Assembly: GCA_009840135.1 (NCBI GenBank)
Contig: VXOH01000071.1
Span: 48,545-81,361, forward strand
Origin: Chloroflexota bacterium
GTDB taxonomy: Bacteria > Chloroflexota > Dehalococcoidia > Lucifugimonadales > UBA3495
Reading direction: 5' to 3'
DNA: 32,817 nt
Position 1 is the stretch's first letter; every line of letters starts with the position of its first letter. Shown one piece after another: positions 6,687 through 32,613 of this stretch. Under the pieces are notes generated by a model. It did no database searches. It had not been told where the DNA came from and saw nothing but the letters and a program-made list of their open reading frames with translations. A program made the position numbers and the translations under genes.

Positions 6687-8333
6687 ATGGAGATATTCGA
6701 CGCCCTTTTTGCCATAGGATTGCTGCTGGTGATGGCCAAGCTGCTGGAGGGGCTCTTCAAGCGCATTGGCATCAATTCCATTTTCGCCTACGCCATCACC
6801 GGGGTCATTCTGGGTCCGGTAACCGGCCTGATTGACGCGGAGAACGACTTCCAGATCATTCTCAACATAGGAATTTTCATCTTCTTCTTCCTGGTCGGAC
6901 TGGACGAACTGGACATATCCGGCTTTCTCCGGTCAATTCGCGGCCGCCTGTTTATCGCCGCCATACTCTCCGTTGCCATCTCCATGGCCGCCTCCCTGGC
7001 AGTTACCACCAACGTTATTTTCGACGTGGGCCTGGACCTGAACTTCACCGACGCCATGGCCGTCGCGGGGGTTTTGTCACTATCCAGCCTGGGTATCGTT
7101 GCCAAGGTGCTGATTGACGAAGACCGGCTGAAAGAGCCGGTAGGCATCCAGATATTCACCGCGGTGGTCATCGCCGAGCTGCTGGTTCTCTTCATCGTCG
7201 GTTTCGCCATCAGCGAACACACCTTCCTGGACGCCCAGGGCCACCTTGATGTGGCGACCAGCGTCGGCCTGCTGCTGGGCCAGTTGGCGGCGTTCACCAT
7301 CGTTACCTGGATAGTCTGCAACAAGCTCATTCCCCGGTTGCTGGTCCTGCTGCATCGGGTATTGCAGGTGCCTCAGCTTTCCTACGGCCTGTTGCTGGGA
7401 GGCCTGTTCCTGGTCATAGTGCTGGCCGAAAAGGTGGGACTGCACGGTACACTGGGCGCCCTGTTGTTCGGCGCGGCCCTTTCACCCCTGCCATATCAGC
7501 TGCGCCACGACTCCATGCCCGGTATGCGAAGCACCGCGGAGGGCCTGTTCGTGCCCTTATTCTTCGCATCGGCAGGACTTAACCTGAACCTGGACTTTCT
7601 GAACCTGCCTCCCGTTACCATCGTGGCCTTGGTGTTTGTGCCCCTGGCCGGAAAATTCGCCGGCGCCATTATCAGCGCCTACATCACCCGGCTGGAAGCG
7701 CCCATTGCCATCGCTTCCGGTTTGATGGCCAAGGGTGTGGCCGAGATTGCCCTGCTGCTGGTTATGCTGCACGGCCACGTTATTAGCGAGGCCCTCTTCT
7801 CGTTGCTGGTCGTCATCATGTTCGGCTATATTCTGCTTACTCCCATGGGAATCAGTCTTGCGATGCGCAGGACCCGTCCTTCGGAAGTAGAAAGCGGGGA
7901 CATGGCGCAGTTGCACCTGCTGGAACGATTTGTCCTGGGCGAAATCCAGGTTAAGGACGTACTGGACAAGACAAGGGTATACCCCGACCAGGATATTACC
8001 GTCCGGAACTTTGTGGACCACTGGACAACACCCGAGCAGCACGATTACGTGGTGGTGGACGGCGGGAAGCTGGCCGGTGTGGTATCCATAAGCCTGCTGC
8101 GTTATCTGCCCCGCACCCAGTGGGCCCAAACCTCGTTGCAGGACGCCCTTCGTCGAGCCACGCCAACGGCGGGGCCGGATGATCAGGTGGAGGACGTATT
8201 GCAGAACATGATTGATAACTCTCTCACAGTGATGCCGGTGGTTGATCCCGACAACGAGCAGTTCCTGGGGTCCATATCCAGCTACGAAATCCTGGAAATA
8301 GTCCTGTTGAACGCCAGTGGACGAGACATTTAG
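6687..8333 (+). CDS. CPA2/Kef-type cation:proton antiporter with C-terminal CBS pair
   Basis: A 548-residue inner-membrane protein. Residues 1 to about 395 are a row of about 12 hydrophobic segments typical of monovalent cation/proton antiporters, with GVILGPVTGLI near the N-terminus, the LSLSSLGIVAKVLIDEDRLK segment around the transport core, and GLMAKGVAEIALLLVMLHG near the end of the membrane part. Instead of the usual nucleotide-binding RCK/TrkA-N domain, residues about 420-545 form two CBS motifs (QVKDVLDKTRVYP... and ...NSLTVMPVVDPDNEQFLGSIS), which often bind adenosine ligands. This predicts Na+ or K+/H+ exchange gated by nucleotide or ionic strength. It seems to be a single-gene unit; the next gene starts 158 bp downstream. 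Confidence 0.93.
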   Translation: MEIFDALFAIGLLLVMAKLLEGLFKRIGINSIFAYAITGVILGPVTGLIDAENDFQIILNIGIFIFFFLVGLDELDISGFLRSIRGRLFIAAILSVAISMAASLAVTTNVIFDVGLDLNFTDAMAVAGVLSLSSLGIVAKVLIDEDRLKEPVGIQIFTAVVIAELLVLFIVGFAISEHTFLDAQGHLDVATSVGLLLGQLAAFTIVTWIVCNKLIPRLLVLLHRVLQVPQLSYGLLLGGLFLVIVLAEKVGLHGTLGALLFGAALSPLPYQLRHDSMPGMRSTAEGLFVPLFFASAGLNLNLDFLNLPPVTIVALVFVPLAGKFAGAIISAYITRLEAPIAIASGLMAKGVAEIALLLVMLHGHVISEALFSLLVVIMFGYILLTPMGISLAMRRTRPSEVESGDMAQLHLLERFVLGEIQVKDVLDKTRVYPDQDITVRNFVDHWTTPEQHDYVVVDGGKLAGVVSISLLRYLPRTQWAQTSLQDALRRATPTAGPDDQVEDVLQNMIDNSLTVMPVVDPDNEQFLGSISSYEILEIVLLNASGRDI

Positions 8334-8491
8334 AGAAACACCTCCTGAATCCTTTTACCCCTGGAGTGGGTGGAACGCCCGCCTGCGTCGGAAAGTAAGG
8401 ATGATGGTGATTTTGGTCAAGAAATTCCCTGCCATTGCCGCCCAATACCGGAAAGATAAGCGCCCCGACCCTTTGTCGAAAGGAGACTGAA

Positions 8492-9421
8492 ATGCCGATA
8501 GACCTGCGCGACCTGGTCAAAAACCCGGAAACAACTCCCTTCTCCCGCCTCAAGTACCTGGTGCGCCAGTCCGAGGAAGACGTAACCCGGTTCATGAACG
8601 AACTGTTCAACCTGGCGGCCCTGGCCAGGGAGGAAGACAACTGGCAGCCGGTGGAGCAGTTCCTGAACCGCTGGGAGGAAATCCTGACGGCGCGGCTGGA
8701 CCTGCCCATGGCCTTTGATACCACACCCTGGGCGCCCTTCACCAAGCCCCTTGCCCAGGCCCGCATCGCCGTCCTGACCACCGGAGGCGTCCACACCTGC
8801 GACCAGGAACCCTTCAACGTGGATGGGGACTGGAGCTTCCGGGAAATCTCCCTGGACACTCCCCTGGAGGACTTTCGGGTGGCCCACACCCACTACGACA
8901 CCAACGGCGTGGCCGAGGACGTGGACGCGGTTTTCGCCATCCACCGCCTCCAGGAACTGGCGGAGGCAGGAATTGTGGGAGAAGCCCACAGTCCCACCTA
9001 CAGCTTCATGGGATATATCTACGACGTGGCCGGCCTGATAGAGGTCAGCGCCCCGGAGGTGGCCCAAAGACTAAAGGATGAAGAGGTGGACGGCGCCGTC
9101 ATCGGCACCACTTGACCCCGCTGCCATCAGTCCGGCGGACTGATCGCCCGCGCCATAGAATCGGTGGGAGTGCCCACGGTGGTGGTAATGGTGGACCGGC
9201 AGAAGGCAGCCACCATGGCTGTGCCCCGGGGTCTCATCCTTCGTTTCCCCTTCGGCCGCCCCTTCGGCGCCCCCGGCAACCCCCAACAACAAAGGGTCGT
9301 CCTGGAAGACGCGCTAGAGGTACTGGCCACAGCCACAGAGCCGGGGAAAATCGTGGCGTCGCCTTACAGGTGGAGAAGGGAAGACTATGGGGAGATTCTA
9401 AGAGAGAGGTACGGGGGATAA
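8492..9421 (+). CDS. GrdB-like reductase family protein, candidate selenoprotein (Sec208 encoded by TGA)
   Basis: Conceptual translation reads through TGA at 9113-9115 as selenocysteine, giving 309 residues. Residues 1-207 end in GAVIGTT. After the TGA the same frame continues PRCHQSGGLIARAIESVGVP and later LRFPFGRPFGAPGNPQQQ, to TAA at 9419-9421. Both halves match the glycine/sarcosine/betaine reductase selenoprotein B family (PF07355 type), including VLTTGGVHTCDQEPFNVDGD and REISLD before the site. The TGA falls exactly where a redox U-x-x-C motif (Sec208-Pro-Arg-Cys211) is expected. A perfect hairpin 10 bases after the TGA has its loop at SECIS-like distance. The ATG at 8492 follows AAAGGAGA. 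True GrdB acts with GrdA and GrdC; neither is nearby, so the substrate is unknown. If not decoded, only a 207-residue product is made. Alternatives are a nonsense mutation or a base error. Confidence 0.8.
9113..9145 (+). promoter_or_regulatory. In-frame TGA with bacterial SECIS-like hairpin
   Basis: TGA at 9113-9115 is followed by ATCAGTCC (9126-9133), loop GGC (9134-9136) and GGACTGAT (9137-9144), a perfect 8-bp stem. The loop begins 19 bases after the TGA and starts with G. From memory, the bacterial SECIS model asks for a stem-loop shortly downstream with a G among the first loop bases and an apical loop about 16-37 bases from the UGA, so it fits. SelB binding is inferred, not shown. Confidence 0.65.
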
Positions 9422-9430
9422 CGGAAAGCT

Positions 9431-10090
9431 CTATTCCTGCGCTGGGCTCACGCTTTGCTCTTCGTTGTTTTCCTCAGCCGGAGCCGGCGGCAGCAAATCA
9501 TCCACCGCAAACTCCACGTCTGGCAGCATGGAAGAAGAAAAACGGTCGCCCCGCCGGTAGATAGTGTGGGTGGAATAGCCACCAGGGCCCGGTCCGGTGA
9601 AGGACTCTATGCAATCTTCAACTAGGTTCATTATCCAGGTTTCGGGGATGTTAGCCTCGGCATAAAGGTTGACTTTGACCTCCCGGTCGTAGGCCAGGGT
9701 AGTGTCGGATATTTCAACGAGCAGCAACACATCCTCGGCGCTGGGAGGTTTGCCCGAATAATCATCTTCTCGAAACCGCAAGATAGCAACATCTGGCTGG
9801 GGAGTGGAGTGTTCGCCTACGAGCACAGGATTCTGGCCGCTAATGGTTACTGCATCCCCCAAGACTCGGCCAAAGACCCTTTCAATACGGCGTACGCCGG
9901 TGGCATGGGGATTACCAATAGGGGCCATAATTATGATCTCTCCGTCAATCAGCTCCAACCGCTCATCCGGTTGCAATATACCCACTTCGGCCATGCGGTA
10001 GTATTCTTCCACCGTGAACTTGCGGGTAACGGGCGCCCTGGAAGTACCGGAAGTTTCCGGCAGGGCCGGAGCCTTGGTTGACGTAGTCAT
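9431..10090 (-). CDS. Uma2 family (DUF820) restriction-endonuclease-fold protein
   Basis: A 219-residue protein with the Uma2 layout: FTVEEYYRMAEVGILQPDERLELIDGEIIIMAPIG (first helix and strand), then TPQPDVAILR, LLLVEISDTTLAYDREVK and YAEANIPETWIMNL. Asp in QPDVAI, Glu in VEIS and Lys in REVK form the expected PD-(D/E)xK catalytic set. These proteins are widespread in Cyanobacteria and Chloroflexota, often in many copies; their role is unknown and a DNA-processing or mobile-element function is usually guessed. The ATG at 10090 was chosen because AGGGTGAGG lies just upstream and the 49 extra residues of the longer frame do not look like protein. It converges with the candidate selenoprotein gene across 9 bp. 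Confidence 0.88.
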   Translation of the reverse strand: MTTSTKAPALPETSGTSRAPVTRKFTVEEYYRMAEVGILQPDERLELIDGEIIIMAPIGNPHATGVRRIERVFGRVLGDAVTISGQNPVLVGEHSTPQPDVAILRFREDDYSGKPPSAEDVLLLVEISDTTLAYDREVKVNLYAEANIPETWIMNLVEDCIESFTGPGPGGYSTHTIYRRGDRFSSSMLPDVEFAVDDLLPPAPAEENNEEQSVSPAQE

Positions 10091-10308: not shown

Positions 10309-10376
10309 CCCCGATAAGTCATTGGGTAGAATTGCGACCCGTGAACAGGCAACTAAAATCTAATAGGAGGCATCGG

Positions 10377-11777
10377 ATGTCAAATAAAGAAGACCTGGCG
10401 TTAATGGCTCACCTGATGCGGCGTGCCGGCTTCGGCGCCAACCGGGACGAGTTGGAAGCCCTTGTTGAAAAGGGTTACGACGCGGTGGTGGACGAATTGG
10501 TCGATCCCCCCGAAGATCGCCATGGCGGCAAGGCCGAATTGCTGCTTCGCTATCATCCCGGCGTCCTTCTTCCCGGCGGCAACCCGGTGATGGGTCAGGC
10601 CAACTGGCTCTACAACATGGTCAGCACCGACAAGCCCCTGGAAGAGAAGATGGCCCTTTTCTGGCACCATGTGTTCGCCACCGGCAACTCCAAGCTGGAT
10701 AACTGCGACCAGATGCTCACCCAGATTGAAATGTTCCGCGAGCTTGGTATGGGCAATTACCAGGACCTGATCCTGGAGCTTTCTCGCAACCCGGCCATGA
10801 TTTACTGGCTGGACAATAACGAGAACCACCGCGACGCTGTGAACGAGAACTGGGGACGTGAACTGCTGGAGCTCTTTACCATGGGCGTCAGCAACTACAC
10901 CGAGGTGGACGTTCGGGAGGCCTCCCGCGCCTTTACCGGCTGGACCATCACCCCCAAGCTTCCCCGCCAGCCCTACGGCCGCTATCCCTGGCGGTTTGAG
11001 TACCGGGAAGAGGACCACGACTTCGAGGAGAAGACTTTCCTCGGACAGTCCGGCAACTTCAATGGCGAGGACATCATTGACATCGTGGTGAAGGAGCCGG
11101 CCACCGCCCGCTTCATTTGCCGCCACCTTTACAACTTCTTCGTGGCCGACGAGCCCCAGGTTCCCGCCTGGACCATCGAGCCCGCCCGCGACGAGGAAGC
11201 ACTGGACGCGATGTGCAACGTCTTCGAAGAGTCCAACTACGAGATTCGCGAAGTCCTGCGCTTCATGCTCAAGTCCGACTTCTTCAAGGAAGCCCGCTAC
11301 CAGAAGATCAAGAGCCCGGCTGAAGTTGTAGCCAGCACCATGAAGATGGTCGGCTCCTACCAGTTCCCGGATCCTGGTCTTGCCAAGATCTGCCGTGAGC
11401 CCGGCTACATGGGACAGGACATCCTGGATCCCCCCAGCGTGGAAGGCTGGCACACCGGCTCCGAGTGGATTAACAGCGGCTCCCTGCTGGCCCGCATTAA
11501 CTTTGTCGCCGACAGCGTGACCAAGACCTCGCTGCCTGGCATGCAGAGCATCATCGGCCACATGAAGAGCCAGAACGTCACTACTCCCGAGGAACTGCTG
11601 GAAGGCTGTCTCGACAGCATGGGTTTCCTGGCCCTCAGCGAAGAGACCCGGAACGAGCTCAGCAACCATGCCCGGGCTGGTGGCAACATGGACTGGAGCG
11701 ATGAGGCCGCCGCCGGTACCCGTATCGGCGAGATGATGGCCCTGATCAGCGCCACCACCGAGTACCAATTCGCCTAG
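10377..11777 (+). CDS. DUF1800 family protein
   Basis: A 466-residue protein beginning MSNKEDLALMAHLMRRAGFG, the usual DUF1800 start, then PLEEKMALFWHHVFATGNSK (about residues 83-102), NENWGRELLELFTMG (about 156-170) and AFTGWTI. The ATG at 10377 follows TAGGAGG; an upstream frame start at 10332 is not supported. DUF1800 proteins are nearly always paired with DUF1501 proteins, as here, 49 bp downstream. Their biochemical role is unknown; they are common in Planctomycetes, Proteobacteria and Chloroflexota. Codon use is strongly biased to C/G-ending codons (GAC, CGC, CTG, ATC), as in highly expressed genes. No signal peptide is seen at the N-terminus. Confidence 0.92.
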   Translation: MSNKEDLALMAHLMRRAGFGANRDELEALVEKGYDAVVDELVDPPEDRHGGKAELLLRYHPGVLLPGGNPVMGQANWLYNMVSTDKPLEEKMALFWHHVFATGNSKLDNCDQMLTQIEMFRELGMGNYQDLILELSRNPAMIYWLDNNENHRDAVNENWGRELLELFTMGVSNYTEVDVREASRAFTGWTITPKLPRQPYGRYPWRFEYREEDHDFEEKTFLGQSGNFNGEDIIDIVVKEPATARFICRHLYNFFVADEPQVPAWTIEPARDEEALDAMCNVFEESNYEIREVLRFMLKSDFFKEARYQKIKSPAEVVASTMKMVGSYQFPDPGLAKICREPGYMGQDILDPPSVEGWHTGSEWINSGSLLARINFVADSVTKTSLPGMQSIIGHMKSQNVTTPEELLEGCLDSMGFLALSEETRNELSNHARAGGNMDWSDEAAAGTRIGEMMALISATTEYQFA

Positions 11778-11826
11778 CCGGTCCTGCATACGGACCATCC
11801 GAACTGACTTTAAGAAGGAGGAACCA

Positions 11827-12957
11827 ATGACTTCAACGAAGAAGGATCCGGTCATCGTAGTACTGCAGCTCACCGGCGGCAACGACTACATGAACACGGT
11901 TATTCCCTACAACGACCCCCTCTATTTTGAGAACCGGCCCAACGTCGGTTACAAGATGGAAGACATCATTAAGGTGGACGACAACCTCGGCTTCATGCCC
12001 GCCATGGGTCCCATCAAGGAAATGTATGACCAGGGCAAGGTCGCAGTCATCCACGGAATCGGCTATCCCGATTCCCCGCGCTCCCACTTCCGCTCCATGG
12101 ACATCTGGCACACCTGTGAGCCGGACAAGGTCGGGACGGAAGGCTGGGCCGGCCGCCTGGCTCGCGAACTGGACCCCAACAAGGAAAACGTTTTGACCGC
12201 CATTAACTTCGGTCATGGCCTGCCCCGGGCCCTGGCAGTGCCGGGCGTCCCCGTTGCCGCCATCTCCGACCTGGGCACCTACGGCCTTCTGACCGGCATC
12301 AGCGACCAGGACCAGCGGGCCAAGGCCCTCGACCTGTTCAGCCGCATGTACTCCCCCACCGTGGGCGGCAGCTTCGTCACTGACTACCTGCGCTCCACCG
12401 GCACGGAAGCCATGATCGGCGCCGACATCGTCAAGGTCGCTCCCGAGCGCTACAGCTCCAACGTAGAATATCCCAGCTCTGCCATCGCCCAGCACCTGCG
12501 CGACATCGCCCAGGTTTACATGGCCGACCTCGGCACCCGGGTCTTCTACACCCAGCACGCCAGCTTCGACACCCACGCCGGCGAGTATGCTGCTCACCCG
12601 GCCCTGTGGAAGGACATCTCCGAGGGCGTGTCCGCTTTCTTCGAGGACCTGAAGGAGCACAACACCGGCGAGAACGTGATCATGTACCTGTTCTCCGAGT
12701 TCGGCCGCCGCGTCCGTGACAACGGCTCCGGCACCGACCACGGCGCAGCCGGCGTAGCCTTCGCCATCGGCGACGGCGTCACGGGCGGCATGTACGGCGA
12801 GTACCCGTCCCGCGAAGCCAAGGACCTGGAGCAGGGCGACCTGGTCCCCAACTACGACTTCCGCGGCGCTTACACCACCATCGTGGAAGACTGGTTCGGC
12901 ATGGACGCCACTCCCCTCGTCAATGGCAACTTCGAGAAGATGAGCTACCTGAAGTAA
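11827..12957 (+). CDS. DUF1501 family protein lacking the usual Tat signal
   Basis: A 376-residue protein of the sulfatase/alkaline-phosphatase-like DUF1501 family. It shows LQLTGGNDYMNTVIPYNDPLY at the start (first 20 residues of the motif), HGIGYPDSPRSHFRSMDIWH near 77-96, TQHASFDTHAGE near 242-253, and LFSEFGRRVRDNGSGTDHGA near 288-307, a probable metal-site region. Family members usually carry a twin-arginine signal; this one starts MTSTKKDPVIVVLQL, directly at the first strand, so it may be cytosolic. GGAGG lies 6 bases before the ATG. It is coupled with the DUF1800 gene. The enzymatic activity is not established for the family. Confidence 0.92.
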   Translation: MTSTKKDPVIVVLQLTGGNDYMNTVIPYNDPLYFENRPNVGYKMEDIIKVDDNLGFMPAMGPIKEMYDQGKVAVIHGIGYPDSPRSHFRSMDIWHTCEPDKVGTEGWAGRLARELDPNKENVLTAINFGHGLPRALAVPGVPVAAISDLGTYGLLTGISDQDQRAKALDLFSRMYSPTVGGSFVTDYLRSTGTEAMIGADIVKVAPERYSSNVEYPSSAIAQHLRDIAQVYMADLGTRVFYTQHASFDTHAGEYAAHPALWKDISEGVSAFFEDLKEHNTGENVIMYLFSEFGRRVRDNGSGTDHGAAGVAFAIGDGVTGGMYGEYPSREAKDLEQGDLVPNYDFRGAYTTIVEDWFGMDATPLVNGNFEKMSYLK

Positions 12958-14997: not shown

Positions 14998-15351
14998 CTA
15001 TCTGTTCCGGTCAATAATGGCCCGCTTGTGGGTCCCCTCGCCAATCTTTCGGTCGCCGTCGTAGGCTTCCACCTGGAAGGTCAGCCGGTTGCGGTTCACT
15101 TCCGCCAGCTCTGCATGGGCGATTACCGTCGCCCCGATGTCCGACGGGGCCAGGTGACGCACGTGCACCTCGTAACCCACTGATGTTTGCGCCTCTTCCA
15201 GGTATGGATGAACGGCGGCGATGGCCGCCTGCTCCATCAGGCTGATCATGGAGGGGGTGCTGTACTTGTCCACATGGCCGGCTACGTTGTGCTCGCTTAC
15301 CACGGTCTGCTGCTGCCCCTTAAGGCCGGGGACTATTTTTTCGCTCACCAT
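14998..15351 (-). CDS. Hotdog-fold thioesterase (FlK-like)
   Basis: A 117-residue protein starting MVSEKIVPG. It has STPSMISLMEQAAIAAVHPY (about residues 30-49), the long central helix of the hotdog fold with a Thr and a Glu in the catalytic positions of fluoroacetyl-CoA-thioesterase-like enzymes, then VHVRHLAPSDIGATV with the His, and FQVEAYDGDRKIGEGTHKRA. It would hydrolyse acyl-CoA thioesters; the natural substrate is unknown. The ATG at 15351 follows GGAGG by 9 bases; the 33-residue upstream extension of the frame is not protein-like. It is divergent from argF. Confidence 0.9.
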   Translation of the reverse strand: MVSEKIVPGLKGQQQTVVSEHNVAGHVDKYSTPSMISLMEQAAIAAVHPYLEEAQTSVGYEVHVRHLAPSDIGATVIAHAELAEVNRNRLTFQVEAYDGDRKIGEGTHKRAIIDRNR

Positions 15352-15543
15352 ATCGGGTTGCCTCCTGGATTGCGTGGATACTAATGCGAATTCCAATATG
15401 GTTACAAAGGATAGTCGGGATGCGGTGAAATTACAAACCGCCGCGATCACCGGCCATCGGGCCGACTCCCCGGCGTCCCAGTCCGCCCATCAGTATGCCT
15501 TTGAGTCGCCACAGGCCAGGACCCATTGAAGTAATGTTTTGCC

Positions 15544-21321: not shown

Positions 21322-21789
21322 CTATCCCCTGTTGGCCCGCCGCCATTTTTCCAGCCCTTCTTCCAGCGCCGTCCAGGGAAGCAGCGCGCACTTGATTCTT
21401 ACCGGATACTGGCGCACCACCTGCAAGGCGGCCAGGTCCCTCAGTCTTTCCAACCCCTCCGGAGCTATCTCCTTGCCCCGCATCATCTCCCGGAAGAGCC
21501 GGGCCATTTCCTCAATTTCCTCGGCGGACTTCCCTTCCATGCACTCGGCCATCATTGAGGCCGAAGCCTGGATTATGGAGCAACCCTGGGACTGGGAAGA
21601 AACGCGCGCCACGCGACCGGCGTCGTCCATCTGGGCGCGCAGGGTCACCTCGTCGCCGCAAAAAGGGTTGAATTCGTGGGCGAATAGCTGGGCTTCTTCC
21701 AGGGGAGCCCGGTGCCGGGGGTTGCGGTAATGGTCCATTATGGCCGCTCCATATAGACCATCAAAAGCTACGTCGGAGAACTGTGTCAT
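21322..21789 (-). CDS. Stand-alone SufU/IscU-like iron-sulfur scaffold protein
   Basis: The 155-residue protein has the three cluster-site cysteines of the family: NPFCGDEV (Cys44, Asp46), SQGCSIIQASAS (Cys70) and VRIKCALLPW (near residue 134). SufU proteins accept sulfur from SufS, usually through a zinc site formed by these residues, or assemble clusters. The insert between helices and the REMMRGKEIAPEGLERL segment match the SufU type rather than classical IscU. A second SufU lies inside the SUF operon at 26599-27048, with clear sequence difference (its site is NPLCGDQ). This copy stands alone, between the microprotein gene and a mobile-type element. It may serve another desulfurase or specific clients. 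Confidence 0.9.
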   Translation of the reverse strand: MTQFSDVAFDGLYGAAIMDHYRNPRHRAPLEEAQLFAHEFNPFCGDEVTLRAQMDDAGRVARVSSQSQGCSIIQASASMMAECMEGKSAEEIEEMARLFREMMRGKEIAPEGLERLRDLAALQVVRQYPVRIKCALLPWTALEEGLEKWRRANRG

Positions 21790-26598: not shown

Positions 26599-27048
26599 CT
26601 ACTCTGTAGTGACCGAATCTCCCTTGCCCTCTATCGCGGCGGTCAGCGTGTGCCAGGCCAGTACGGCGCACTTGATGCGCGTGGGGTAAGCGGATACGCC
26701 GGATAGCACTTCCAGGTCGCCCAGCAAATCGAAATCCACGTCGGCATCCGGGTCCGTGATAAGGGCATGGAATCCCTCGAAGATTTCCTCTGCCTTGGCA
26801 ACGGTCTGGCCCATTACGCTTTGGGTCAGCATGGAAGCCGACGCCCGGGATATGGCGCACCCAACCCCCTGGAAGGCCGCGTCGGCAATTACGTCGTCCT
26901 CCACCCTGAGGTAAACGGTAATCTGGTCGCCGCAAAGGGGGTTGTAGCCGTCGGCCTGCCGGTTGGCGTCTTCGAGAATGCGGAAGTTGCGGGGCCGGTT
27001 GTTGTGTTCCAGCAGGATTTCCTGGTAAAGGTCGTGCAGGTTGGACAT
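26599..27048 (-). CDS. sufU: SufU, sulfur acceptor/zinc scaffold of the SUF system
   Basis: The last gene of the SUF operon. The 149-residue protein has NPLCGDQITVYL (Cys39, Asp41), FQGVGCAISRASASML (second Cys) and TRIKCAVLAWHTL (third Cys), the residues that hold zinc and exchange a ligand with the SufS active-site Cys. It accepts persulfide from SufS and passes sulfur to SufBCD. Its ATG overlaps the sufS stop (TGATG), so the two are coupled. It differs clearly from the stand-alone SufU paralogue at 21322-21789. Confidence 0.95.
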   Translation of the reverse strand: MSNLHDLYQEILLEHNNRPRNFRILEDANRQADGYNPLCGDQITVYLRVEDDVIADAAFQGVGCAISRASASMLTQSVMGQTVAKAEEIFEGFHALITDPDADVDFDLLGDLEVLSGVSAYPTRIKCAVLAWHTLTAAIEGKGDSVTTE

Positions 27049-28295
27049 CAGCGGCTGAATACCTCAATAACCCGGTCTATTCCCTTGACCAGGGTATCAA
27101 TCTCTTCCCTGGTGTTGTAAAAAGCCAGCGAGGCCCTTACCGTGGCTGGAACCCCGTACCGGTCCATCAATGGCTGGGCACAGTGGTGACCCGTGCGGAC
27201 GGCGACGCCCTCCGAGTCCAGGATTGTCCCCACGTCGTGAGGATGGGCGTTCTCCATCACAAAGGACAAAATGCTGCCCTTGTTCCGGGCCGTCCCGATC
27301 AACCGTACCGGCTCAATCTCCGACAGTTTCTCAGTCCCGTAAGCCACCAGCTCATTCTCATAGGTGGCGATGTTTTCCATGCCCACGCCGTTAACGTAAT
27401 CAATGGCTGCGCCCAGGCCAACGCTGCCGGCTATGTTCTGCGTTCCCGCCTCGAACTTGGCCGGTATCACGTTGTACAGGGTCTTTTCGTAAGTAACGGA
27501 GCGGATCATTTCCCCGCCGCCCTGGTAGGGTGGCATGGCATTGAGCAGGTCGGCCCGCCCGTACAGGGCGCCGACGCCGGTGGGGCCATACAGCTTATGG
27601 CCGGAGAAGGCGTAGAAGTCGCAACCGATCTTCTGCACGTCAACGGGCACGTGGGCCACTGCCTGCGCCCCGTCCAGCAGAACGGGTATTCCCCTGGCGT
27701 GGGCCAGTTCAACAATCTGCTCCACCGGGTTGATGGTCCCCAGCGCGTTGGACTGGTGGACTATGGAGACCAGCTTGGTTCGAGGACTCAGGAGATTCTC
27801 AAATTCGTCCAGCAGCAACTCTCCATCGTCATTGATGGGGGCAACCTTAAGGCGCGCTCCTTTCTCCTCGCAAAGAATCTGCCAGGGCACAATGTTTGAG
27901 TGGTGTTCCATGGCCGATATGATTATCTCGTCGCCGGGGCCGATGTTCTCACGGCCGTAGGTCTGGGCCACCAGGTTGATGCCCTCGGTGGTGCCCCGCA
28001 CAAAAATAACCTCTTTGTCTTCCTTGGCGTTAATGAACTCCTGGACCTTGGTTCGGGCCTCTTCGTAAGAATCGGTTGCCCGCTGGCTCAGGGTATGCAC
28101 ACCCCGGTGTACGTTGGAGTTTTCGGTCATGTAGTAGTTAACCAGGGCGTCAATAACCACCTGGGGCTTCTGGCTGGTAGCAGCGTTGTCCAGGTAAACC
28201 AGCGGCTTGCCGTTGATCATTTCCTTGAGGATGGGGAAATCTTCCCGAATCCTGGCCACGTCAAAAGTGTTGGCGGTCGTTGACAATCTAGGCAC
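27048..28295 (-). CDS. sufS: Cysteine desulfurase SufS
   Basis: A 415-residue PLP-dependent desulfurase that takes sulfur from cysteine for Fe-S assembly. The PLP-binding Lys is in YAFSGHKLYGPTGVGALYGR (residue about 235), and the persulfide-forming Cys is in RTGHHCAQPLMDRYGV near the C-terminus. PLVYLDNAATSQKPQ and HHSNIVPWQ are also family signatures. Length is typical of group II desulfurases. It overlaps sufD by 8 bp and sufU by 1 bp, showing tight operon packing. Confidence 0.97.
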   Translation of the reverse strand: MPRLSTTANTFDVARIREDFPILKEMINGKPLVYLDNAATSQKPQVVIDALVNYYMTENSNVHRGVHTLSQRATDSYEEARTKVQEFINAKEDKEVIFVRGTTEGINLVAQTYGRENIGPGDEIIISAMEHHSNIVPWQILCEEKGARLKVAPINDDGELLLDEFENLLSPRTKLVSIVHQSNALGTINPVEQIVELAHARGIPVLLDGAQAVAHVPVDVQKIGCDFYAFSGHKLYGPTGVGALYGRADLLNAMPPYQGGGEMIRSVTYEKTLYNVIPAKFEAGTQNIAGSVGLGAAIDYVNGVGMENIATYENELVAYGTEKLSEIEPVRLIGTARNKGSILSFVMENAHPHDVGTILDSEGVAVRTGHHCAQPLMDRYGVPATVRASLAFYNTREEIDTLVKGIDRVIEVFSR

Positions 28296-29685
28296 CTCCC
28301 TGGCGTTGGCGGGAACCGGAATTGCTGTTGCCCATGCCGCTGATGGTCTTCCCGGTTACCGTGTCGAGAAACAGCCGGTCCAGGTGCTCGCGCACCACCT
28401 CATGGGTTACGGTGTCGATAATCTCGCTGGCAAAGGCATGAATTAATATCTGGCTGGCAGTCTGCGGGTCAATGCCCCGGCTGCGCATGTAGAACATGGT
28501 GTCTTCGTCGATATGGCCGGCGGTGGCGCCGTGGCCGCACTTCACGTCGTCGGCGTAAATCAGCAGGCTTGGCTTGCTGTCCACCTCCGCCCGGTCCGAC
28601 AGGATCAGGTTCTTGTCCGTCTGCTGGGCGTCGGTCTTCTGGGCGTCCTCCCGCACCATCACAGTGCCCCCGAACACCGCCCGGGAGCGGCCGTCCAGGA
28701 TGCCCTTGTAATACAGGCGGCTGGTGCCGTGGGGATGAGCGTGGTCAATGGATATCAGGTTGTCCATGTGCTCGGCATTGTCCGTCAAATACAACCCGTT
28801 CAGCGAACAGTAGGCCCCGGTGCCGTCCAGAAGCACCGACAGGTCGTGCCGGCCCAGGGCGCACCCCAGGGCGAAGGACCCCGACTCATAGCTGCTGTCC
28901 CTGGCCTGAGTGACCCTGGTGGTACCCACGTGGTAGGCGGCGCTACTCTCATCCAGCAAGCGGTAGTGGTTGACCTTCGCGCCCTCGCCCACGGCAATCT
29001 CTGTAACGGCATTGGTGAAGTACTGGACAGCCTTGGCCGGGTCAGCGCCCACGTATGACTCAAATACCGTCAGCCGCGTGTTGCGACCCGCAACTATCAG
29101 GGTACGGGGATAGCCTGCTGAATCCGGACTATTCTGCACGTGAACCAGGTTCAGAAAGACCTCTTCGTCGTAGTCATCGGGCAACCTGACATACGCCCCA
29201 TCATTGAGAAAGGCCGTGTTCAGGGCGACAAAGGCATCCTCTTCAACCCTGGCGTGTTGTCCCAGGTTCTCCGGAAGACCGCCTGTGTTCACGTCCCCGG
29301 TTGTCCAACCCTGCTCCAGCGTGCCGACAATACCCGGGCGGGTCTCGGGAGTAACCACCGGCTTCCCGTCAACAAAGACCAGGTTCAGCCACTCCGGTTC
29401 AAAACCGGTGGACGGCAACCTGTTGCCAGCGGCAAGCAATAACTCTACAGGGTCCTGGCCGCTCGCCGAAGCGTCAAACCGGCCCTGGGCAATGGGTCGG
29501 ACGTTGGTGTACTTCCAGGGTTCGTTGCCCCGCCGGGCCGTCGGGAATCCCTTGCCGTCGAAGCTATCCCAGGCAGCGGCCCGCAGGTCGTTGAGCCACG
29601 CCGGGCTGTTGGCGGAAAGCTGCTCCCGCAGGGCATGGTAGTCGGCGTAGTAGGATGGGTGGTTGATGGTGGGCGCGGTGCTCAT
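28288..29685 (-). CDS. sufD: SufD, FeS assembly scaffold subunit
   Basis: The 465-residue SufD forms the SufB-SufC2-SufD complex. The N-terminal part includes the LNDLRAAAWDSFDGKGFPTA helix and NEPWKYTNVRP, typical of SufD; the C-terminal beta-helix carries RAVFGGTVMVREDAQKTDAQ, KPSLLIYADDVKCGHGATAG, with the conserved His, and FYMRSRGIDPQTASQILIHA, the SufC-contact region. Its start lies 2 bp from the sufC stop, and its end overlaps sufS by 8 bp. It ends with a Gly/Asn/Ser/Gln-rich tail of about 15 residues (GNSNSGSRQRQGG). Confidence 0.95.
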   Translation of the reverse strand: MSTAPTINHPSYYADYHALREQLSANSPAWLNDLRAAAWDSFDGKGFPTARRGNEPWKYTNVRPIAQGRFDASASGQDPVELLLAAGNRLPSTGFEPEWLNLVFVDGKPVVTPETRPGIVGTLEQGWTTGDVNTGGLPENLGQHARVEEDAFVALNTAFLNDGAYVRLPDDYDEEVFLNLVHVQNSPDSAGYPRTLIVAGRNTRLTVFESYVGADPAKAVQYFTNAVTEIAVGEGAKVNHYRLLDESSAAYHVGTTRVTQARDSSYESGSFALGCALGRHDLSVLLDGTGAYCSLNGLYLTDNAEHMDNLISIDHAHPHGTSRLYYKGILDGRSRAVFGGTVMVREDAQKTDAQQTDKNLILSDRAEVDSKPSLLIYADDVKCGHGATAGHIDEDTMFYMRSRGIDPQTASQILIHAFASEIIDTVTHEVVREHLDRLFLDTVTGKTISGMGNSNSGSRQRQGGA

Positions 29686-29687
29686 CG

Positions 29688-30455
29688 TTAGTTGCCGGCC
29701 TCCACCGCTTCCTTGATCCAGTCGTAGCCTTTCTCTTCCAGCTCCAGGGCCAGCTCCGGCCCGCCCGACCGCACAATTCGGCCGTCCAGCAGGACGTGTA
29801 CCTGGTCGGGGGTGATGTAGTTGAGCAGCCGCTGGTAGTGGGTCACCAGCACTATGGCATTCTCGGAATTGCGCAAGCTGTTCACCCCGTCGGAAACGAT
29901 GCGCAGGGCATCAATGTCCAGGCCCGAGTCCGTCTCGTCCAGCAGGGCCAGGGTGGGTTCCAGGATGGCCATCTGCAAAATCTCGTTGCGCTTCTTTTCA
30001 CCCCCGGAAAAGCCCTCGTTCACCGAGCGCCGCACCAGTTCCGGGTCGATATCCACCAGCTTGACCTTCTCCCGCAGCAACCGGTCAAACTCCCTCGCTC
30101 CGTACTCCTCCTCGCCCCGGTGAATACGTTTGGCGTCGGCCGCGGCCTTCAGGAACTGGAATGCCCGCACCCCGGGCAGTTCCAGCGGGTATTGAAATGC
30201 CAGGAACACGCCCTCCCGCGCCCGTTCCTCCGGCTCCATGGCCAGCAAGTCCTTGCCGCAGTAAACGGCCTCGCCCTCCGTCACATCGTAATCGGCGCGA
30301 CCGGCCAGGGTACTGGCAAGAGTGCTCTTCCCGGACCCGTTGGGCCCCATAATCGCGTGGACCTCCCCCGCATTTACGGTCAGGTTTACGCCGCTGAGTA
30401 TTTCCTGGTCCTCCACGGAAACGCGGAGGTTCTTGACTTCCAGAATGGGTGGCAT
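29688..30455 (-). CDS. sufC: SufC ATPase
   Basis: A 255-residue ABC-type ATPase that drives conformational change of the SufB-SufD scaffold. It has Walker A GPNGSGKST, the Q-loop FLAFQYPLELPGV, signature FSGGEKKRNEI, Walker B LALLDETDSGLDIDAL, and the H-loop LVTHYQRLL. The EKKR form of the signature and the ETDSGLD form of Walker B are the SufC hallmarks that separate it from transporter ATPases. It lies directly upstream of sufD and follows the membrane-protein gene by 62 bp. Confidence 0.97.
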   Translation of the reverse strand: MPPILEVKNLRVSVEDQEILSGVNLTVNAGEVHAIMGPNGSGKSTLASTLAGRADYDVTEGEAVYCGKDLLAMEPEERAREGVFLAFQYPLELPGVRAFQFLKAAADAKRIHRGEEEYGAREFDRLLREKVKLVDIDPELVRRSVNEGFSGGEKKRNEILQMAILEPTLALLDETDSGLDIDALRIVSDGVNSLRNSENAIVLVTHYQRLLNYITPDQVHVLLDGRIVRSGGPELALELEEKGYDWIKEAVEAGN

Positions 30456-30517
30456 TTAACGGTTTTGCTCCTTCTTGGGCGGTATTTCAAAAGAATTGTG
30501 CCATTTGGCCTGAATTT

Positions 30518-30928
30518 CTACCGTTCAGGGTCGGCGCTTTCGTCGTTGCTATTGGGCGGTGGAGTACTGGGCGGACGACCGGCCTCCAGGTCTTCTTTGA
30601 TGGATTCGTACCACTCCCGCCACTCTTTCCGGCTTTCTTCCCTTCCCGCTTCGTGTCCCTCAGCCCGAGCTGTTTTCTCAGCTTCCATCATTCTCTGCCG
30701 CTGCTGCCGTTGTTCCTGCTGTCGAATCAACCAGGAAACTACCATGTATATCACCTCCGCGGTGAGTAATATGGACAGGACACTGGCGCCAAAGGCGTTA
30801 AAACCGTTGCCGCCAAGAGCGCCTTTCCATACGTTCAGCCACCACACCTGATGGGGATTGGTGATGGCTTCGATGTATATTCCGACGCCAAACCATAGCC
30901 ACCAGACAACCCAAACCACAAACAGCAA
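30518..30928 (-). CDS. Two-transmembrane protein with charged coiled-coil tail, inside the SUF operon
   Basis: About 136 residues with two hydrophobic segments, FVVWVVWWLWFGVGIYIEA (about 3-21) and LSILLTAEVIYMVVSWLI (about 52-69), followed by a long highly charged helix (QQEQRQQRQRMMEAEKTARA) and a disordered Pro/Asn/Ser tail. I recognise no family. The frame has no ATG; TTG at 30928 is the first usual start, but the open frame runs further upstream with a hydrophobic stretch (LRWVFNLPLVLQPLLF), so a CTG start near 30949, after AAGGTGG, is possible. It is placed between sufB and sufC, normally adjacent genes, with the same strand; a membrane anchor or iron-related accessory is a guess. Confidence 0.7.
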   Translation of the reverse strand: MLFVVWVVWWLWFGVGIYIEAITNPHQVWWLNVWKGALGGNGFNAFGASVLSILLTAEVIYMVVSWLIRQQEQRQQRQRMMEAEKTARAEGHEAGREESRKEWREWYESIKEDLEAGRPPSTPPPNSNDESADPER

Positions 30929-31065
30929 CGGCTGGAGAACCAGCGGCAGGTTAAAAACCCACCTTAGTAAGTCCGAATGTTCAGTTTCCTGATGGTTCGG
31001 GTCGATAAGTACGCGGTCCTTTTCCCATGGTTAACCTGGCAGCCACGAATCGGCCTCCCTGGGCA

Positions 31066-32523
31066 TCAGCCCACCGTCCCCTCCAAACTCACCTTCATCA
31101 ACTGCCCCGCCTCCATGGCAAACTCGAAGGGCAGTTCCTGGAAGATGCCCCGGCAGAAGCCGTTGATGATCATGTAGTTGGCTTCCTCCGGGGAAATTCC
31201 CCGCTGCTGGCAGTAGAAGAGCTGGTCGTCGCTCACCTTGGAGGTGGTGGCCTCGTGCTCCAGCTGGGCCGTGGGGTTCTGCACCTCGATGTAGGGGACC
31301 GTATGGGCCCCGCACTTGTCGCCGACCAACAGGGAATCGCACTGGGTAAAATTCCGGGCGTTGGTGGCCGACGGCATTATCTTCACCAACCCCCGGTAGG
31401 TGTTCTGCCCCTTGCCGGCGGAAATCCCCTTGGCCACGATGGTGCTCTTGGTGTTCTTGCCCAGGTGTATCATCTTGGTGCCCGTATCGGCCTGCTGGTA
31501 ATTGTTGACCAGCGCCACCGAATAGAACTCCCCCGTAGAGTTGTCCCCCTGCAAAATCACGCTGGGGTACTTCCAGGTAATGGCCGAACCCGTCTCCACC
31601 TGCGTCCACGAAATCTTGGAGTTCCGGCCCTGGCACTTGCCCCGCTTGGTCACGAAGTTGTACACCCCGCCGTTGCCGTCCTTGTCGCCGGGGAACCAGT
31701 TCTGCAGGGTGGAATACTTTATCTCCGCGTCGTCCAGCGCCACCAGTTCCACCACCGCGGCGTGCAGCTGGTTGGACTTGCGCATGGGAGCGGTGCAGCC
31801 CTCCAGGTAGCTGACGTAGGACCCTTCCTCCGCCACGATCAGCGTGCGCTCAAACTGGCCGCTGTCCAGGGCGTTGATGCGGAAGTAGGTCATCAGCTCC
31901 ATGGGGCACCGCACGCCCTTGGGGATGTAGGCGAAAGAGCCGTCACTGAACACGGCCGAGTTCAGGGCGGCGTAGAAGTTGTCGGCGTAGGGCACCACCG
32001 ACCCCAGGTACTTCTGCACCAGGTCCGGGTGGTTGCGGATGGCCTCGCTCATCGAACAGAAAATGACCCCGGCCTTCTCCAGCGTCTCCTGGTAGGTGGT
32101 GGCCACCGAGGAGCTGTCCAGCACCGCGTCCACCGCCACGCCGGCCAGCCGCTTCTGCTCGTCCAGGGGAATGCCCAGCTTGTCGAAGGCCTCCAGCAGC
32201 TCGGGGTCCACCTCATCCATGTTCTTGGGGCCTTCCTTCAAGTTGGGCGAGGCGTAGTAGATGATGTCCTGGAAATCAATGCGGGGGTGCTGGATGTTCG
32301 CCCACTTGGGTTCCTCTTCGTTCAGGGTCACCCAGTAGCGGTAGGCCTTCAGCCGCCACTCCAGCATCCATTCCGGTTCCTCCTTCTTGGCGGAGATGAA
32401 CCGGACTATGTCCTCACTGAGTCCCTTGGGGGCCACATCCTGCTCGATGTCAATGGTAAAGCCCCACTTGTACTCGGTGTCAATGTCTGTGGATTCCCGG
32501 GAAATGACCCGCTGGGTCGTCAT
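31066..32523 (-). CDS. sufB: SufB, FeS assembly scaffold
   Basis: A 485-residue scaffold subunit on which Fe-S clusters are built with SufC and SufD. It starts [20 protein letters not shown], then [49 protein letters not shown]-type motif (seen as [20 protein letters not shown]), [20 protein letters not shown] with the conserved Cys-Thr-Ala-Pro, [20 protein letters not shown], and the C-terminal [20 protein letters not shown] motif. The ATG at 32523 follows GGGAGGAG; the frame extends to 32610 without support. It is the first gene of the operon, downstream of the palindromic promoter at 32614-32640. Confidence 0.97.
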
Positions 32524-32613
32524 ATGGCACTCCTCCCACGGATGGCGTTGCAATGGCCGGAACAACCTGCCAGGAGCTCCGGCCCGGCCTATCTGCGCCA
32601 ATGGACACAATAT

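Follow-up and report, generated by a model that had tools for sequence, protein, structure and literature searches.

Selenoproteins that are labelled PrdB and carry a UxxC motif are abundant in the sea, with 42 sequences in the Sargasso data and 235 in the GOS data (PMC1088965, PMC2398784), and they are included in recent selenoproteome reviews. In ocean surveys, PrdB is among the most abundant selenoprotein labels and is read as a subunit of proline reductase. The chemistry of a pyruvoyl subunit, PrdA or GrdE, is established as a requirement of the Stickland-type reaction (PMC13188914). The gene described here lies in a window of 32,817 nucleotides, the whole stretch of DNA that was analysed, and its product shares with the marine metagenomic 'PrdB' selenoproteins the UxxC motif, the PF07355 label, the marine setting and a bacterial SECIS element. 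It likely belongs to them, a placement made by description rather than by direct sequence comparison. The present case differs in that the absence of partner genes was tested, no such test being apparent in the accessible portions of the surveys. We read the product as a selenoprotein with a Sec208-Cys211 pair that would act as a stand-alone thiol/selenol reductase of the PrdB/GrdB superfamily, and give this reading, which is drawn from sequence, a probability of about 0.6.

An earlier note on this DNA had proposed a GrdB-like gene read through an in-frame TGA. Its reading frame was recovered exactly, from ATG at 8492 through TGA at 9113-9115 (codon 208) to TAA at 9419-9421 with no further in-frame stop, and the U-x-x-C motif placed at the TGA is U208-P-R-C211 (Table 1). 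The expected truncation by gene callers to 207 residues applies when translation starts at the ATG, but a caller that allows TTG starts gives 226 residues before the TGA. The 3' half, described as non-random, is kept in frame in dozens of genomes. Comparison with four close relatives gave 34-52 synonymous versus 5-18 non-synonymous codon differences after the TGA, a large excess that shows strong selection at the protein level downstream of it. In the same window queA, der, sufS and sufB are among the genes that terminate at TGA, so the genetic code is not reassigned. A promoter scan of 8250-9600 found no sigma-70-type site.

Table 1 Features of the PrdB-like locus (window coordinates)
Feature	Position	Strand	Basis
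Full-length PrdB-like selenoprotein gene, 309 residues, Sec at 208	8492..9421	+	Frame, family models, homologues
Added N-terminal region, largely helical, spanning about residues 1-69	8492..8698	+	Alignment, AlphaFold model; unmatched by Bifidobacterium PrdB
In-frame TGA, almost certainly the Sec codon, first position of U-P-R-C	9113..9115	+	TGA in relatives' matches, TGA/Cys in named loci
Codon TGC for Cys211, which probably supplies the resolving thiol in UxxC	9122..9124	+	Unchanged in an alignment of 40 homologues
SECIS-type hairpin, 8 bp, loop GGC	9126..9144	+	Fold, covariation, model match

The perfect 8-bp hairpin reported earlier is present, with 9126-9133 pairing to 9137-9144 around the loop at 9134-9136, and it begins 10 nt past the TGA. 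Its RNA fold has an energy of -16.6 kcal/mol (z -2.55 versus shuffles). Across 29 distinct homologues, 97.9% of the cells in the inner stem (columns 16-20 with 26-30, numbered from the T of the TGA) were paired, compared with 77.9% in column shuffles and 18-39% with a slid partner; kinship of the sequences inflates the shuffle controls, whereas the slid controls retain that kinship yet drop far lower. Both-sided changes were seen in four of the five stem pairs (such as G-C to C-G and U-A to G-C), and RNAalifold recovered the identical stem unprompted. Within the window clade, the stem codons CAG TCC ... GGA CTG are near-constant at the third position, where neighbouring codons vary. The apical loop holds a G and fits the published bacterial SECIS model (PMC1088965). 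The window hairpin matched a SECIS model at 64.3 bits (E 9e-14), its own sequence being within the training set. When the genome was scanned with the model for more selenoproteins, the only matches with a sensible TGA were two PrdB-like genes; a third match (contig C21, E 0.33) was rejected, there being no gene with a sensible TGA at that place. An Rfam search of the window gave no match.

Homologues were present in 41 of 59 related genomes. Among the matches listed, all those extending across residue 208 contain an in-frame TGA, two of them with a TAG as well, and the two matches lacking an in-frame TGA both fail to cover residue 208. At 30 inspected loci of relatives the TGA sits in the UxxC motif, one further locus (L032) being left uncalled under the length rule of this inspection. 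The earlier note had named a genome without selABCD, and homologues without Cys or Sec at this position, as testable findings that would count against its proposal, and neither was observed. A GTDB scan supplied 54 named loci, of which 42 carry TGA at codon 208 and 12 carry a Cys codon there. The TGA form occurs mostly in Dehalococcoidia/SAR202 and other Chloroflexota, and also in Bacillota, Acidobacteriota, Nitrospinota, Latescibacterota, Armatimonadetes and Wallbacteria, while the Cys form comprises nine Bifidobacterium and three Chloroflexota loci (one of these Anaerolineaceae), the two Cys groups sitting on separate tree branches. Cys211 is unchanged across 40 aligned homologues. The closest named relative, at 91%, is L077 (MPMM01000002.1) from a sponge-derived SAR202 bin; MPMM00000000 is bin22 (PMC5649159). 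The window very probably comes from a SAR202-type Chloroflexota. A pattern scan of viral contigs found no homologue.

All four selenocysteine genes are present in the window's genome: profile searches detected selA (537.7 bits), selB (351.7 bits) and selD (386.2 bits), and tRNA-Sec (selC) was found at 66.2 bits with the anticodon UCA. Of the 59 search-set genomes, 52 have selA above cut-off. The selD gene on contig C118 (L020) in turn encodes a selenoprotein, its own in-frame TGA lying in HCAGUAAK. Since selABCD are present, Cys and Sec exchange among homologues and the SECIS hairpin covaries, selenocysteine at codon 208 is strongly supported, and the TGA almost certainly encodes it.

The GrdB-like identity was not borne out. 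The nearest model is PrdB (TIGR04483), matched over residues 78-296 at 178 bits, under the equivalog cut-off of 300; GrdB-type models scored 52-60 bits, TIGR01917 (GrdB) giving 56.6 bits against a cut-off of 602.2. PF07355 (GRDB), the family suggested in the earlier note for a search, matched residues 71-207 at 41.5 bits, above the gathering score of 22. This alignment occupies window positions 8702-9112, and because the model's last position coincides with the residue preceding Sec, PF07355 itself seems to be truncated at the Sec codon. The second half is thus lost to gene callers and, in this case, to the Pfam model too, since both stop at the Sec codon. As a positive control, a Bifidobacterium PrdB homologue scored 421.5 bits with TIGR04483; it adjoins PrdA (853.5 bits, cut-off 700), and its locus also encodes a PrdC-type protein (413.6 bits, short of the 490 cut-off) as well as one of proline-racemase type. 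The tree keeps the window clade apart from GrdB and from Bifidobacterium PrdB, each of which is reached by a long branch, and keeps these two apart from each other; its deepest splits have low resolution. The window protein thus resembles PrdB in its homology over the matched region, a UxxC at the equal position and the existence of Sec or Cys forms, but differs in its score, a genome without PrdA, an extra N-terminal region and a separate clade; matches at named loci outside the window clade start mostly near residue 75-81. With GrdB, GrdF and GrdH of glycine, sarcosine and betaine reductase it shares the superfamily, UxxC and Sec, but its low scores, a genome without GrdA or GrdE and a far tree branch set it apart.

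The claimed lack of glycine reductase genes beside the locus holds genome-wide for GrdA and GrdE, and also for PrdA: PF04723 (GrdA), PF09338 (GrdE) and TIGR04480 (PrdA) had no match in the window's genome. The Grd models work in this lineage, since they yielded GrdA and GrdE together in seven relatives. PrdA was above cut-off in none of the 59 relatives, 30 of which are at least 90% complete, and one sub-threshold match was seen. The assembly (3.45 Mb, 190 contigs) has a completeness of 93% and may for that reason lack a partner gene, but same-genus genomes at 96-98% completeness are also without the partner subunit. These models detect the known partner families, and a partner of an unrelated family would escape them. 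In the window clade no gene neighbour is conserved beyond near relatives, the upstream Na+/H+ antiporter being common only to genus members, which fits a free-standing enzyme.

Several further gene arrangements were recorded. In several relatives from the same family and order, GrdA, GrdE and a Sec-form GrdB are clustered at four loci (L131, L132, L136 and L137), an arrangement absent from the window's genus. The window's genome holds a second PrdB-like gene on contig C125 (L002:784-1980, -) that encodes 399 residues, with an in-frame TGA in TPTUPLC and its own SECIS hairpin; it scores 168.9 bits with the PrdB model and falls in a separate clade from the window gene. This paralogue lies directly downstream of a zinc alcohol dehydrogenase gene, and its neighbours vary among relatives. 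In Bifidobacterium apri (L114:2743-8599), a prd operon encodes PrdC-type, PrdA, Cys-form PrdB and proline-racemase-type proteins, and hence a selenium-free PrdB; several other Bifidobacterium species likewise have a prd operon, judged by neighbour clusters. At L112 (Anaerolineaceae), L113 and L115, three genomes in all, a Cys-form PrdB-like gene is tightly clustered with genes for an 86-residue protein and a relative of the MtaA/CmuA-type methyltransferases. Within the window, a DUF1800-DUF1501 pair stands beside an NHL-repeat protein at 10332-12957 (+), an order kept in close relatives, and 14998-15450 (-) encodes a thioesterase of the fluoroacetyl-CoA-specific (FlK) family (121.6 bits). Two putative SufU/IscU-like scaffold genes, read from translations, lie on the minus strand: that at 26599-27048 belongs to a suf cluster (27048-32610), and that at 21322-21789 stands apart.

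An AlphaFold model with Cys in place of Sec208 had a mean pLDDT of 87.6 and a pTM of 0.80. In this model residue 208 lies between strand 201-205 and helix 209-224. Helices predominate in the predicted N-terminal region of about 70 residues, whose beginning is modelled less confidently. A sequence search of the PDB gave no convincing match, and fold searches returned nothing beyond general matches to Rossmann-like folds or periplasmic binding proteins, which are uninformative on function (the best had a Foldseek E of 0.008 and, with VIA-align, a Z of 8.8 across 132 residues). As the PDB has no close structural match, the catalytic geometry is that of a prediction made with Cys.

For the stand-alone reductase, SelB very probably uses tRNA-Sec to decode UGA 208, signalled by the hairpin that closely follows. 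The core is predicted to be alpha/beta and Rossmann-like, with Sec208 behind a strand and at the head of a helix whose first turn holds Cys211, a placement in which the two probably form a redox pair. The selenolate may attack an electrophilic substrate, a peroxide or a disulfide; a Sec208-Cys211 selenenylsulfide would then form and be reduced, presumably by thioredoxin.

This reading was weighed against four others. That the TGA is a true stop, a sequencing error or the mark of a pseudogene whose 3' half is a relic is hardly credible: TGA does serve as a stop elsewhere in the window, but this one is shared by dozens of separately assembled genomes and is accompanied by downstream selection, SECIS covariation and selABCD. 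A real D-proline reductase PrdB subunit, its PrdA and PrdC genes hidden in assembly gaps, would suit the best family model and the fragmented, incomplete assembly; it is nevertheless very improbable, given the score of 178 bits against a cut-off of 300 and 421.5 for the operon-borne Bifidobacterium PrdB, and the count of zero for above-cut-off PrdA among the 59 relatives. With no pyruvoyl subunit encoded, D-proline or glycine reduction is unlikely, and for the same reason the stand-alone reductase is the best reading.

It is also rather unlikely that the protein relies on a partner that went unrecognised, such as a pyruvoyl or flavin enzyme from another family, in the reductive cleavage of C-N or C-S bonds of dissolved organic compounds. 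Such a role would agree with the chemistry of the GrdB/PrdB superfamily and with flavin-enzyme neighbours in relatives, namely a luciferase-like flavin enzyme downstream of the PrdB-like gene in L098, L100 and L130, and an acyl-CoA ligase followed by a flavin enzyme beside it in L093 and L104. The window clade, however, is without such a neighbour, and because SAR202 genomes are rich in flavin monooxygenases, according to the accessible part of the source (PMC5395668), the proximity may be due to chance; the link to the luciferase-like enzyme in other clades was therefore left as weak. Somewhat more doubtful still is a narrower version of the stand-alone model, in which the protein would serve broadly as a thiol peroxidase or disulfide reductase directed against oxidative stress, like other UxxC marine selenoproteins. 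The UxxC at a helix start speaks for it, and so does the prediction that the majority of marine selenoproteins are thiol redox enzymes (PMC1088965). Against it, many residues distant from UxxC are invariant in the alignment (G99, R117, H132, D143, M173 and G174), which suggests a specific substrate pocket over a bare redox motif.

The selenoprotein nature of the stand-alone reductase proposed here is not new in kind, as the family is already known and abundant in the sea, and the locus is less unusual than first thought. What is new is the orphan state of its SAR202 branch, together with the helical region added at the N-terminus, and these features make it a variant of the known family. Among the open-access papers searched, no report was found on SAR202 selenoproteins or on PrdB-like proteins without PrdA. 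The proline-reductase reading is probably wrong for these bacteria, because PrdA is above cut-off neither in the window's genome nor in its relatives. We tentatively propose, at slightly less than even odds, that the large, mostly marine 'proline reductase PrdB' branch is a family of partner-free selenoenzymes with a substrate of its own, perhaps serving the use of dissolved organic matter by SAR202. If the PrdB reading is wrong, these bacteria would have a selenium-dependent activity other than proline reduction.
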